A program made the translations under genes and the position numbers. Source: a bacterium (GTDB lineage Bacteria > UBP15 > UBA6099 > DSWB01). From it: 5,162 nt of DNA. The stretch lies in the NCBI GenBank assembly GCA_020061125.1, contig JAGUYV010000387.1, forward strand, positions 1 through 5,162, in the 5' to 3' direction. The notes under the pieces were generated by a model. The model had not been told where the DNA came from, did not search any database, and worked only from the letters and a program-made list of their open reading frames with translations. This document shows, in pieces, positions 1-5,162 of the stretch (the first letter of the stretch is position 1; each line of letters begins with the position of its first letter).

Positions 1-933
<933 letters not shown>

Positions 934-1330
934 CCCACTCTCCCAGCACCTCGACGATGGCGCCTCGAATCATCTCGGGCGTGAACGGCTTGCGAAAGAA
1001 CGCCACCACGCCTTTCTGGTGCAGTTTTTCGATTTTGGTTTCGCTGCCCTCGGTGGAAATCACCACCACAGGCACATTGCAGAGCACTTCGTGTTCGTGC
1101 ATGCGCTCGATCATCTGCACGCCGTCCATGACGGGCATGTTGATGTCCGCGAACACCAGGTCCACCCAGTTGCTGTTGAGCAATTGCAGGGCCTCGGCGC
1201 CATTGCCCGCGGTCAGCAGCTTGTCCACGGGCACGCCGGCCATGCGCACGGTGCGCGCAATCATGGACCTGATGATTTCGGAGTCGTCCACGATGAGAAT
1301 GTTGAAACCCATGGCGCCCTGCGCCTCCCG

Positions 1331-1816
1331 TTAGAGCTCGAAAGTGCCCTGGCTGTTTTTTATGGTCACGCGGCCCGTGCCGACCTCGAGGTTCATGGTG
1401 CGCCACTGGTCGCCGCCCACATCCTCGCTCTGAATGAACACGCCGTTTTTCCAGAAGATCTTTTTCATGGCGATGTAGTTGCGCTGCCCGATGTTGAAAA
1501 AGTTGTTGTTGTCGAGCACGCGCGCGCCGCCCGCAACCTTGACGATGATGCGGCCCTTGTTCGCTCCGAGATTGTAGGCCGCCTTGAACAGAAGGGGAAT
1601 GCCCGTGTCCGCGTACATGAACGGGTTCTCGCGGGCGCGGTCCGGGTTCTCGCGGGACAGCGGGAGCTGAAAATGGAGCAGGCCGCCTACGCGCGCGTGC
1701 GGGTCATGTATGGACACGCCGATGCACGACCCAAGCGAATGGGTCACAATCATGTCCCCATCGCACCCGGAGACTTTCATCTCGGAGACACCCACGATGT
1801 GCCTCATTGCAAGCAC
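1331..1816 (-). CDS. cheD: CheD, chemoreceptor glutamine deamidase
   Basis: CheD converts specific glutamines of chemoreceptors to glutamates, tuning receptors for methylation. The Cys-His-Thr catalytic set of the family is visible as T-x5-C in THSLGSCIGV and the His in GGLLHFQLP. Counted from the ATG at 1807 these are T22, C28 and H45. Further family stretches are YADTGIPLLF, KVAGGA and FNIGQRN. There are 161 residues from a GTG at 1816, or 158 from an ATG at 1807. I chose GTG because AGGAG lies 6 nt before it, while the ATG would be about 15 nt from the only Shine-Dalgarno. Most family members begin close to the ATG, so the 9-nt choice is open. A much longer in-frame extension to 1957 runs inside cheR and is not credible. 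The gene begins 10 nt after the cheR stop and ends 18 nt before cheY. One oddity is a short repeated RENP segment (see the repeat at 1622-1656). Confidence 0.92.
   Translation of the reverse strand: MLAMRHIVGVSEMKVSGCDGDMIVTHSLGSCIGVSIHDPHARVGGLLHFQLPLSRENPDRARENPFMYADTGIPLLFKAAYNLGANKGRIIVKVAGGARVLDNNNFFNIGQRNYIAMKKIFWKNGVFIQSEDVGGDQWRTMNLEVGTGRVTIKNSQGTFEL
1622..1656. repeat. 14-nt direct repeat within cheD
   Basis: The 14-mer CGGGTTCTCGCGGG occurs at 1622-1635 and again at 1643-1656. The period is 21 nt, so reading frame is kept. On the coding strand it gives R-E-N-P twice, seven residues apart, in SRENPDRARENPF, in the loop after the catalytic His of CheD. It could be a small in-frame duplication or a coincidence of similar codons. 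I expect no separate function. Confidence 0.5.
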
Positions 1817-1822
1817 GGTCCG

Positions 1823-1828
1823 CTCCTC
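1823..1828 (-). promoter_or_regulatory. Shine-Dalgarno for cheD overlapping the cheR stop codon
   Basis: GAGGAG on the minus strand shares bases with the cheR TGA stop (1827-1829). It is 6 nt from a GTG at 1816 and about 15 nt from the ATG at 1807. The spacing favours the GTG. Ribosomes finishing cheR would stop on this site, which suggests translational coupling of cheD to cheR. Confidence 0.6.
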
Positions 1829-2702
1829 ACGGTTTGATATATATGGTGGGCCGGACATAGCGGAACCTGTGCTGAATGCCTGTGAGGCTCTCGCTGTGGC
1901 CGACCATGAACACGCCGCCCGGGCGCAGCGCGTCGAAAAACCGCTGCACCAGTTCATTCTGCGTGGGCTTGTCGAAATAAATCATCACATTGCGGCAGAA
2001 AATCACATCGAATGGCTGTTTCATGGGCCAGGGTTCCATGAGGTTCAGCCGCCTGAACCGGATGAGCTTGGCAAGCTCGGGCCTGGCCCTGTAGAAGCCC
2101 GGATGGCGCGAATCCTTTTCAAAATACTTGTTGCGTAACTCCGGCGGGGTGTCCTTGAACCGCGCTTCGGAGTAGGAGCCTTCGCGCGCCACGGCCAGCA
2201 CGCGCGTGGAGATATCCGTGGCCAGAATGAGCGCGTCCATGCGATCAAGATCTGACACGGCCTCGCGCGCCACCATGGCCATGGTGTAGGCTTCCTCGCC
2301 CGAAGAACAGCCCGCGCTCCAGATCCGCAGTTTTGATTGCTTTGAAGGATCAATCTTCTTGAGCACTTCGTCGCGCAGGTAATCGAAGTGGTCCGCCTCG
2401 CGGAAGAAGAAGGTGAGGTTGGTGGTGAGAGTGTCAATCATGTAGGTGAGTTCGCGGCCGGTCTGATCCCCTTCCACCAGGGCGAGATACTCGGGATAGG
2501 TGTCAATTCCGAGCTGTCGCAGGCGCTTGTTGAGGCGCGCCTGCACGAGCGCCTTTTTGCCGTCGTGCAGGTTGATGCGGCACAGTCCGTAGACCATCTC
2601 GCTGATGCGCTTGAAGTCCTCGTCCCGCAGGGGCCGGCTGGCGAGGATGTTCGCGACATCCGGCTCGGGGAAACGCATGGATGTGTCGGTGTTGCCGTCC
2701 AA
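1827..2702 (-). CDS. cheR: CheR, chemoreceptor glutamate O-methyltransferase
   Basis: CheR uses S-adenosylmethionine to methylate receptor glutamates. The 291 residues are close to the usual length. An N-terminal helical domain covers about 24-95. The CheR hallmark TTNLTFFFREADHF lies at 93-106. The SAM-binding stretch is WSAGCSSGEEAY (128-139), with acidic D163 in LATDIS, RRLNL near 217-221, and FDVIFCRNVMIYFD (231-244). The C-terminus has VGHSESL and no added repeats. The start is TTG at 2702: GGAGG (2708-2712) is 5 nt upstream, whereas the first in-frame ATG (2678) has no ribosome site. The gene begins only 25 nt after a strong intrinsic terminator, so its expression and that of the genes behind it probably depend on read-through. 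It ends 10 nt before cheD. The receptor-tail pentapeptide-binding beta-subdomain was not assessed. Confidence 0.95.
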   Translation of the reverse strand: MDGNTDTSMRFPEPDVANILASRPLRDEDFKRISEMVYGLCRINLHDGKKALVQARLNKRLRQLGIDTYPEYLALVEGDQTGRELTYMIDTLTTNLTFFFREADHFDYLRDEVLKKIDPSKQSKLRIWSAGCSSGEEAYTMAMVAREAVSDLDRMDALILATDISTRVLAVAREGSYSEARFKDTPPELRNKYFEKDSRHPGFYRARPELAKLIRFRRLNLMEPWPMKQPFDVIFCRNVMIYFDKPTQNELVQRFFDALRPGGVFMVGHSESLTGIQHRFRYVRPTIYIKP

Positions 2703-2707
2703 AGGAT

Positions 2708-2712
2708 CCTCC
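2708..2712 (-). promoter_or_regulatory. Shine-Dalgarno that fixes the TTG start of cheR
   Basis: GGAGG on the minus strand lies 5 nt before the TTG at 2702. There is no comparable site before the alternative in-frame ATG at 2678. This supports a TTG start and the extra eight N-terminal residues. Confidence 0.7.
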
Positions 2713-2727
2713 AGCGATGCGCCGCGG

Positions 2728-2770
2728 AAAAAAGAGCCGGGAGCGGAGCGGAACGCCCCGCTCCCAACTC
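2728..2770 (-). terminator. Rho-independent terminator between cheW and cheR
   Basis: On the minus-strand RNA, GAGUUGGGAGCGG (2770-2758) pairs with CCGCUCCCGGCUC (2746-2734). This gives a 13-bp stem with two G-U wobbles, an 11-nt loop, and then directly six U (2733-2728). Read on the plus strand the two wobbles become mismatches and no T-run follows. The structure is therefore directional and belongs to the minus-strand operon. It lies about 105 nt beyond the cheW stop and 25 nt before the cheR start. A nested 7-bp stem with a 6-nt loop (GGAGCGG/CCGCUCC) is an alternative fold. Confidence 0.85.
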
Positions 2771-2772
2771 TG

Positions 2773-2804
2773 TAGCGGCGCGCGCCGCGCGCGCGCCGCG
2801 GCTA
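2773..2804. other. G/C-only hairpin upstream of the terminator
   Basis: Positions 2775-2802 are 28 consecutive G or C bases, mostly alternating. GGCGCGCGC (2777-2785) pairs with GCGCGCGCC (2789-2797) around a 3-nt loop. TAGC (2773-2776) and GCTA (2801-2804) extend the stem past a 3-nt bulge. In RNA it would be very stable. No T-run follows on the minus strand, so it is not a terminator by itself. It may protect the cheW 3' end, pause polymerase or simply reflect composition. Confidence 0.6.
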
Positions 2805-2811
2805 GGGCTTT

Positions 2812-2837
2812 TCCGGTTGCCGGACCGCGATGCGCGG
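2812..2837. other. Two small back-to-back hairpins in the cheW-cheR gap
   Basis: TCCGG/CCGGA (2812-2816 with 2820-2824, loop of 3) is followed at once by CCGCG/CGCGG (2825-2829 with 2833-2837, loop of 3). Both stems are perfect but only 5 bp long. With the two structures at 2734-2804 they make a run of four stem-loops in a 173-nt gap. No promoter match is visible in the remaining sequence up to 2875. Function unknown. Confidence 0.4.
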
Positions 2838-2875
2838 CCCGGGTTTGCGTTCGTGCGTTGGAGCCGCCCGCCGGG

Positions 2876-3373: not shown

Positions 3374-3379
3374 GATCTT

Positions 3380-3386
3380 CCTCCTT
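3380..3386 (-). promoter_or_regulatory. Consensus Shine-Dalgarno for cheW
   Basis: AAGGAGG on the minus strand lies 6 nt from the ATG at 3373. It decides between that start and the internal ATG at 3325, which lacks such a site. Confidence 0.8.
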
Positions 3387-3416
3387 AACTGGATAGGGAA
3401 ACACCCTCTGTGCTAA

Positions 3417-3433
3417 CGCGGGACGCGCCCGCG
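3417..3433. other. Hairpin in the cheA-cheW spacer
   Basis: CGCGGG (3417-3422) pairs with CCCGCG (3428-3433) around a 5-nt loop, 12 nt after the cheA stop. No T-run follows on the minus strand, so it is not an intrinsic terminator. It could affect mRNA processing or stability between cheA and cheW. No promoter is recognisable in the 72-nt spacer. Confidence 0.4.
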
Positions 3434-3445
3434 ATTGTTCCCGAA

Positions 3446-5162
3446 TCATTTGGCGCTGCGCGCGGCGCGCACAAGGCCCGCGGCGTCGAGAATGAGCGCC
3501 ACCCGTCCATCGCCCATGATCGCGCCGCCGGACACGCCCTCGAGGTCGTCGAAAGCGCGGCCCAGCGACTTGATCACCACCTGCTGCTGGCCCACTAGCT
3601 CGTCCACGAGCAGGGCGCACGAACTGCCGTCACCGGCGATCACCACCACGAGCGCATCATCGGGGCTAGTTTTGGCGCTTGCGCACCCGAACAGCTTGTA
3701 CAGCCGGAACAGGGGCAGCAGCTCGCCGCGCAGATTCAGCATTTCGCCCTTGCCCACCACGGTGGTGAGCTGGCCCGGATCCGGTCGCAGGGATTCCACA
3801 ATGGCGATGGTGGGCACGATGTAGCGCTCGCCGCCCACAGTCACGATCATGCCGTCTATGATGGCCAGCGTGAGGGGCAGGCGGATGGTGAAGGTGGTGC
3901 CGCGGCCGGGTTCGCTCTCGATCTCGATGCGGCCGCGCAGGTTCTCGATGCTGCGTTTGACGACATCCATTCCCACGCCGCGGCCCGACACATCCGTAAT
4001 TTTTTCCGCGGTGGAAAAGCCCGGGTGGAAGATGAGGCCGAAGATCTCGCGGCTGGTCATGTCCGAGGCCGCGCCGGGTTCGATGAGGCCCAGACTCTCC
4101 GCCTTGGCCAGGATTTTTTCCTTGTCCAGGCCCTTGCCGTCGTCCTCGAGCTTGATGATCACATTGCCGCCCTCGTGGAACGCGCGCAAGCGCACACGCC
4201 CCTTGCCGGGCTTGCCCGCGGCGCGCCGCTCCTCGGGTTTCTCGATGCCGTGGTCCACGGCGTTGCGCACCATGTGAACCAGGGGGCTGCCAATTTCCTC
4301 GACCACATTGCGGTCCAGCTCGGTATCCTCGCCCGAGTAGGTGAACTCGACCGGCACGCGGGACTTCACGGACAGGTCGCGGGCCAGGCGCGCCATTTTC
4401 TGGAAGGTTGACTTGAGCGACACCATGCGCATGCTCATGGCCAGTTCCTGCAGCTCGCGGGTGATTTTCGTGAGCTGGGCCACATTGCGCGACAGGCGCG
4501 CGTTGCCGGTGTCCCGGATTTCAGGCTCCTGCATGACCATGGAGTTGGAAATCACCAGCTCGCCCACGGAATCAATGAGCTGGTCCAGGCGGCTGGTGTT
4601 CACCTTGATGGAACCGTTGGTGCGCGCCTTTTGGAAAGCGGTGTCGGCTGCGGCCGCAATGTCCTGTGTATCCGCGGGCGGGGGCGTCTGCGAGTCCCGT
4701 TCCAGCGCCGGCTTGTGCGCAGGCGCCTGGGGCGCGGGACCGCCGGCCCAGGGATTTTCGAGCTTCTGGATCAGCTCTGCATATCCCCCCGGAATCTCGT
4801 AGGCCGCGCCGTTCATGGCGGCTTCCACGCGCCCGGCCATGTCTCGCAGCATGTCCAGAGCCTCGAACGCGGCCTGCGCCACAGGGCCGGTGAACGAGAT
4901 TTTGCCCTCGCGCGCCTGGTCCATGAGCGACTCGGCCGTGTGCGCCAGTTCATTCACATCGTTGAGGCTCATGAATCCTGAAATGCCTTTGACATTGTGG
5001 AAGCAGCGGAAGATTTCATTCAAATGTTCGGCTGCGCCGGGGTTCTTTTCGAGTTCGAGCAGGGACACCTCGGAGGCCTGGAGGTATTCCATGGTTTCGG
5101 AAACGAACTCCGCGAGTTCGGGATTGTCGGGGTCGAAATTGATGATGGGCAGGTCGCGCGCA
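3446..5162 (-). CDS. cheA: CheA, chemotaxis sensor histidine kinase (N-terminus cut by window edge)
   Basis: CheA autophosphorylates under receptor control and passes phosphate to CheY and CheB. There are 571 visible residues. The frame stays open to the right edge, 23 codons beyond the first ATG at 5092, so that ATG is internal. Numbering from it: the P1 His-phosphotransfer domain spans about 1-105, with the phosphorylated His at 32 in FHNVKGISGFM (codon 4997-4999). A Pro/Ala-rich linker covers about 112-158. The P3 dimerisation helices span about 161-222 (RLDQLIDSVGELVISNSM). The P4 HATPase domain follows, with N-box VHMVRNAVDHGIE (272-284), G1 EDDGKGLD (316-323) and G2 GRGVGMDVVKRSIENL (370-385). 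The P5 CheW-like domain is about 410-545. No P2 response-regulator docking domain fits in the short linker. Text before the first ATG (INFDPDNPELAEFVSETMEYL) reads as linker plus the start of the P1 helix, so more N-terminal sequence lies outside, of unknown size. Confidence 0.96.
   Translation of the reverse strand, partial: ARDLPIINFDPDNPELAEFVSETMEYLQASEVSLLELEKNPGAAEHLNEIFRCFHNVKGISGFMSLNDVNELAHTAESLMDQAREGKISFTGPVAQAAFEALDMLRDMAGRVEAAMNGAAYEIPGGYAELIQKLENPWAGGPAPQAPAHKPALERDSQTPPPADTQDIAAAADTAFQKARTNGSIKVNTSRLDQLIDSVGELVISNSMVMQEPEIRDTGNARLSRNVAQLTKITRELQELAMSMRMVSLKSTFQKMARLARDLSVKSRVPVEFTYSGEDTELDRNVVEEIGSPLVHMVRNAVDHGIEKPEERRAAGKPGKGRVRLRAFHEGGNVIIKLEDDGKGLDKEKILAKAESLGLIEPGAASDMTSREIFGLIFHPGFSTAEKITDVSGRGVGMDVVKRSIENLRGRIEIESEPGRGTTFTIRLPLTLAIIDGMIVTVGGERYIVPTIAIVESLRPDPGQLTTVVGKGEMLNLRGELLPLFRLYKLFGCASAKTSPDDALVVVIAGDGSSCALLVDELVGQQQVVIKSLGRAFDDLEGVSGGAIMGDGRVALILDAAGLVRAARSAK

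Follow-up and report, generated by a model that had tools for sequence, protein, structure and literature searches.

A putative partial terminator between cheW and cheR in a bacterial chemotaxis operon and hairpins at the boundary of receptor genes and cheR

Chemotactic adaptation relies on few methylation enzymes that serve many receptors. To our knowledge, how operons encode the ratio of enzyme to receptor beyond Escherichia coli is largely unknown. In E. coli, the chemotaxis genes are split into the mocha (motA-motB-cheA-cheW) and the meche (tar-tap-cheR-cheB-cheY-cheZ) operon, each with its own promoter. Intercistronic stabilising stem-loops as in malE-malF and puf work through mRNA decay, for which a U tract is not required. 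CheR and CheB of E. coli are few, with the receptors in large excess (PMC5809148). In the ABC-importer operons of Ruminiclostridium, internal intrinsic terminators have been found after the genes for substrate-binding proteins (Wu et al., 2022; PMC9045158), and experiments have shown that such terminators, with a short U tract and a long stem, determine how much binding protein is made per transporter (PMC9045158).

The hairpin considered here, H3 in the gap between cheW and cheR, resembles the Ruminiclostridium terminators in its long G+C-rich stem, its short U tract, its intergenic location and the lack of an antiterminator, and equally resembles partial internal terminators (PMC9045158) in that CCGCGG comes after the short U run. 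The ABC-importer terminators split an abundant component from its scarcer partners, as H3 is proposed to do. In contrast to the importer case, however, H3 is located in a chemotaxis operon of an unrelated uncultured lineage and the next start codon follows 25 nt past the U run. As between mocha and meche, a transcriptional break is predicted after cheW, although no promoter is seen behind it; and as in malE-malF or puf, a strong hairpin would separate an abundant from a scarce product of one operon, but H3 possesses a U run, which stem-loops that act on mRNA decay do not require.

The che operon and its cheW-cheR gap

The window comprises a whole contig of 5162 bases, one of 513 contigs in a genome that is 79% complete. 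As assigned with Pfam, its minus strand carries cheA, cheW, cheR, cheD, cheY, cheX and cheB in this order:

3446 to 5161, minus strand: cheA (Pfam Hpt, H-kinase_dim, HATPase_c and CheW), 5' end cut at the contig end
2876 to 3373, minus strand: cheW, the gene preceding H3 (Pfam CheW, 2.3e-40), stop codon at 2878-2876
1827 to 2702, minus strand: cheR (Pfam CheR, 2.1e-62, and CheR_N), TTG start at 2702
1331 to 1816, minus strand: cheD (Pfam CheD), start position chosen by the analysis
899 to 1312, minus strand: cheY (Pfam Response_reg)
445 to 933, minus strand: cheX (Pfam CheX)
2 to 448, minus strand: receiver part of cheB (Pfam Response_reg), 3' end cut at the contig end

The receiver part of cheB shows 71-76% identity to the cheB starts of relatives. 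From cheR via cheD, cheY and cheX to cheB the genes are tightly packed, with spacings of 10, 18, -35 and -4 nt, so that the junction with the hairpin is the sole wide break below cheW. H3 is positioned between genes of one operon on a single strand, with cheA-cheW ahead and cheR-cheB behind. In the gap between cheA and cheW (window 3374-3445), a modest hairpin, GCGGGCGCGTCCCGC, lacks a U tract, and the best hairpin of this gap reaches -15.7 kcal/mol.

In the MFE fold, the minus-strand RNA of the 173-nt cheW-cheR gap forms three hairpins in series, which are listed together with the adjacent elements read from the sequence:

2820 to 2842, minus strand: H1, 10-bp stem in the MFE fold of the gap
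2775 to 2799, minus strand: H2, 11-bp G+C stem, z -1.4
2733 to 2771, minus strand: H3, predicted terminator stem of 18 bp with a UUC loop, z -7.3
2728 to 2733, minus strand: U run of the predicted terminator, the first U doubling as the final stem base
2708 to 2712, minus strand: GGAGG, ribosome site of cheR

While H2 is accounted for by GC composition alone, H3, in which 2771-2754 pair with 2750-2733 including three G-U pairs around the triloop UUC, has an energy of -35.3 kcal/mol (2775-2728) that was equalled by 0 of 200 shuffles. The initial annotation had correctly placed the cheW stop codon, GGAGG and the TTG start as well as the distances between them, and had recognised the stem, although as 13 bp with two G-U pairs, and the run of six U, which does end at 2728, 25 nt ahead of the TTG, but shares its first base with the stem. 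Its proposal that the wobbles restrict folding to the sense RNA is refuted, as the antisense RNA is also stable (-26 kcal/mol, z -5.4); the direction of H3 is given mainly by the U run, which is present on the sense side only. With a stable G+C-rich hairpin and a U tract directly 3' in the direction of transcription, H3 displays the sequence features of an intrinsic terminator.

Other roles of the gap sequence were considered and rejected. A hidden upstream start of cheR within the hairpin has no ATG, GTG or TTG farther upstream in the cheR frame to begin from. Pairing of UUUUCC at the terminator end with GGAGGA (window 2707-2731), which would occlude the ribosome site of cheR, amounts to a fold of -8.9 kcal/mol that 48 of 200 shuffles equalled. 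Equally, the gap is not a dispersed repeat with another good copy in the genome, the best secondary match (E 0.002) covering 33 nt of the GC-rich H2 part.

Gene-end hairpins in the same genome

As background, 417 kb of the same genome were surveyed for hairpin-plus-U sites, a simple codon model serving to call the genes, and H3 ranks as the second strongest among 362 such sites. Intergenic sites with dG<=-18 in which five or more of six positions are U occur 15 times after a same-strand gene versus 2 times after an opposite-strand gene. Strong hairpins, for which the survey of gaps required dG<=-18 and a better fold than each of 20 shuffles, were present in 7/14 gaps between convergent genes, 16/73 between tandem genes and 0/11 between divergent genes. 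Orientation and gap-type counts together suggest that the organism places such hairpins at gene ends. By the standard of this genome, H3 is, as judged from sequence, a typical intrinsic terminator, its strength and its resemblance to gene-end hairpins bearing out the initial assignment as terminator. Among the tandem gaps of 45-250 nt tested it is the strongest. Its location is unusual, as it leaves 30 nt to the next start (25 after the U run), while most tandem terminators of the genome leave about 90 nt or more, although a few others are situated as close as H3.

Hairpins ahead of cheR in relatives and other phyla

Five further operons of the order, one in the same genome (C178) and the others in G002, G003, G004 and G006, have an mcp gene directly ahead of cheR, as does a further MAG, L039; G006 also has a second operon that hardly differs from that of G003 (mcp 96% identical). 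A strong hairpin occupies the mcp-cheR gap in C178, G002, G003, G004, G006 (twice) and L039, of which the L039 hairpin fails against shuffles (6/20 equally good). UUGUUUU comes after the hairpin in G002, G004 and G006, and the C178 hairpin lacks a U tract. The comparison with related genomes thus recovers strong hairpins before cheR, but after mcp and with sequences unrelated to H3. Where cheA is directly ahead of cheR (G001) no strong hairpin is seen, and the two nearly identical ADurb.Bin236-type operons have a hairpin about 450 nt ahead of cheR. In a tree of CheA, CheR, CheD and CheY, the window is placed near these operons with supports of 31-64 for the deciding branches, so that the lineage of the window may have lost mcp, but such a loss is unproven.

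The second che operon of the same genome (G000:C178, also L123) has the order cheA-mcp-cheR-cheD-cheY-cheX-cheB with no cheW homologue detected, and a perfect G+C-rich hairpin precedes its cheR. The mcp products encoded before cheR in L039, L040, L117, L118 and L123 share a similar acidic-aromatic motif at the C-terminus, for example IPLDEEDFDDF, which might serve to tether an adaptation enzyme.

Across phyla, a gap was counted when it contained a hairpin that reached at least -18 kcal/mol in stability and beat all 20 shuffles. The first set of loci was exploratory, the second is independent and draws on two phyla plus one additional genome, and the third derives mainly from another phylum. 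The window is left out of the cheW-cheR counts of the first set and of the pooled sets:

First set: mcp-cheR 12/19, cheA-cheW 1/40, cheR-cheD 0/11, cheW-cheR 0/5
Second set: mcp-cheR 3/5, cheA-cheW 0/18, cheR-cheD 1/23, cheW-cheR 0/17
Third set: mcp-cheR 0/3, cheA-cheW 0/4, cheR-cheD 0/1, cheW-cheR 0/10
Pooled sets: mcp-cheR 15/27, cheA-cheW 1/62, cheR-cheD 1/35, cheW-cheR 0/32

The junction pattern is absent from the third set. The pooled difference between mcp-cheR and cheW-cheR gaps corresponds to a Fisher p of about 4e-7, and collapsing the three near-identical operons gives 13/25 for mcp-cheR and a p of about 2e-6; both values are too optimistic because loci from one phylum share ancestry and the first sample had been used to set the criterion. 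Among the sampled loci, the window is the sole cheW-cheR gap that bears a strong hairpin. Gaps between mcp and cheW contain one in 1/8 cases (p 0.05, small numbers), which suggests that strong hairpins may be tied to the transition into cheR rather than to mcp genes as such.

Strong mcp-cheR hairpins, mostly unrelated to each other, occur in L095, L105, L106, L107, L110, L111, L050, L076, L117-L119 and L123, which represent several phyla. About half of the recurrent hairpins are without a U tract, among them those of L123, L105, L107 and L110, and such hairpins may act on mRNA stability instead.

Partial termination and its alternatives

The reading we favour, with moderate confidence, is that H3 represents a genuine, partial and constitutive terminator within the operon, at which most but not all transcripts would end after cheA-cheW while a fixed fraction would read through into cheR-cheD-cheY-cheX-cheB. 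Incomplete termination would leave this downstream block transcribed below the level of the cheA-cheW kinase core, and with H3 in place the adaptation genes are thus probably expressed less than the signalling-kinase genes. As initially annotated, no recognisable promoter is present between H3 and cheR, and read-through is therefore the likely source of cheR-cheB mRNA. We infer that H3 terminates transcription in vivo, that it does so partially and that the resulting ratio is of importance for adaptation.

H3 might also be a full operon end, with cheA-cheW stopping here and cheR-cheB constituting a separate unit served by an unrecognised type of promoter that overlaps the hairpin or the 25-nt spacer. 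The strength of H3 is typical of complete terminators and the ADurb.Bin236-type operons, with ample room for a promoter behind their distant hairpin, would agree with such an arrangement; however, the spacer measures 25 nt only and, within 2900-2680, the best sigma-70-like match reaches 6/12 positions and sigma-28- and sigma-54-like sites occur at background level only, which renders a full end unlikely. A stabilising or processing stem-loop, which polymerase passes and which, after a cut of the mRNA downstream, shields cheA-cheW from 3' exonucleases, is improbable as well: selective processing and stabilisation are known (discussed in PMC9045158) and many hairpins at the equivalent junction are devoid of a U tract, but a proper U run, unnecessary for such an element, follows the stem of H3.

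Regulated antitermination, as put forward in the initial annotation, is not supported. An attenuator turned off by a ligand, a protein or the ribosome could make use of H1 and H2 ahead of H3, and protein-mediated or processive antitermination would be invisible in the sequence, yet the cheW-cheR gap contains no leader ORF, with neither ATG nor GTG present, the best alternative fold lacking H3 is less stable by 28 kcal/mol, pairing of the upstream gap to the 5' arm of H3 was at least equally strong in 197/200 shuffles, and the search of Rfam gave no family above cut-off, with chance matches below threshold only; we consider regulation of this kind very unlikely. There is an equally slim chance that H3 is merely a relic, the terminator of a former mcp between cheW and cheR that was left without present function when mcp was lost. 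The mcp-cheR hairpins of the relatives and the singular position of the window among cheW-cheR gaps would be in line with such a history, but inspection of the gap by eye revealed no mcp remnant, the low branch supports leave loss versus absence unsettled, the 18-bp pairing is intact and such an origin is compatible with a present function.

For the favoured partial terminator, the proposed setting of the ratio between kinase core and adaptation enzymes appears plausible and gains from the enrichment of mcp-cheR hairpins across phyla, while CheY, which is not expected to be scarce, is also encoded behind the terminator and does not fit the simple reading. H3 belongs to a known class of internal terminators and is a strong and real, though ordinary, element that probably has a function. 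A literature search of open-access papers found no known hairpin ahead of cheR. That hairpins recur between mcp and cheR is a more interesting lead than H3 itself. Tentatively, a hairpin at the boundary of receptor gene and cheR may constitute a convergent design feature across phyla that keeps receptor and kinase in excess of the methylation enzyme by partial termination or 3' stabilisation, and that in the lineage of the window has persisted or arisen without a receptor gene; either mcp was lost with the hairpin kept or the hairpin arose independently. If real, a hairpin that recurs precisely where mcp meets cheR would provide a simple and testable answer to how the ratio of enzyme to receptor is encoded.
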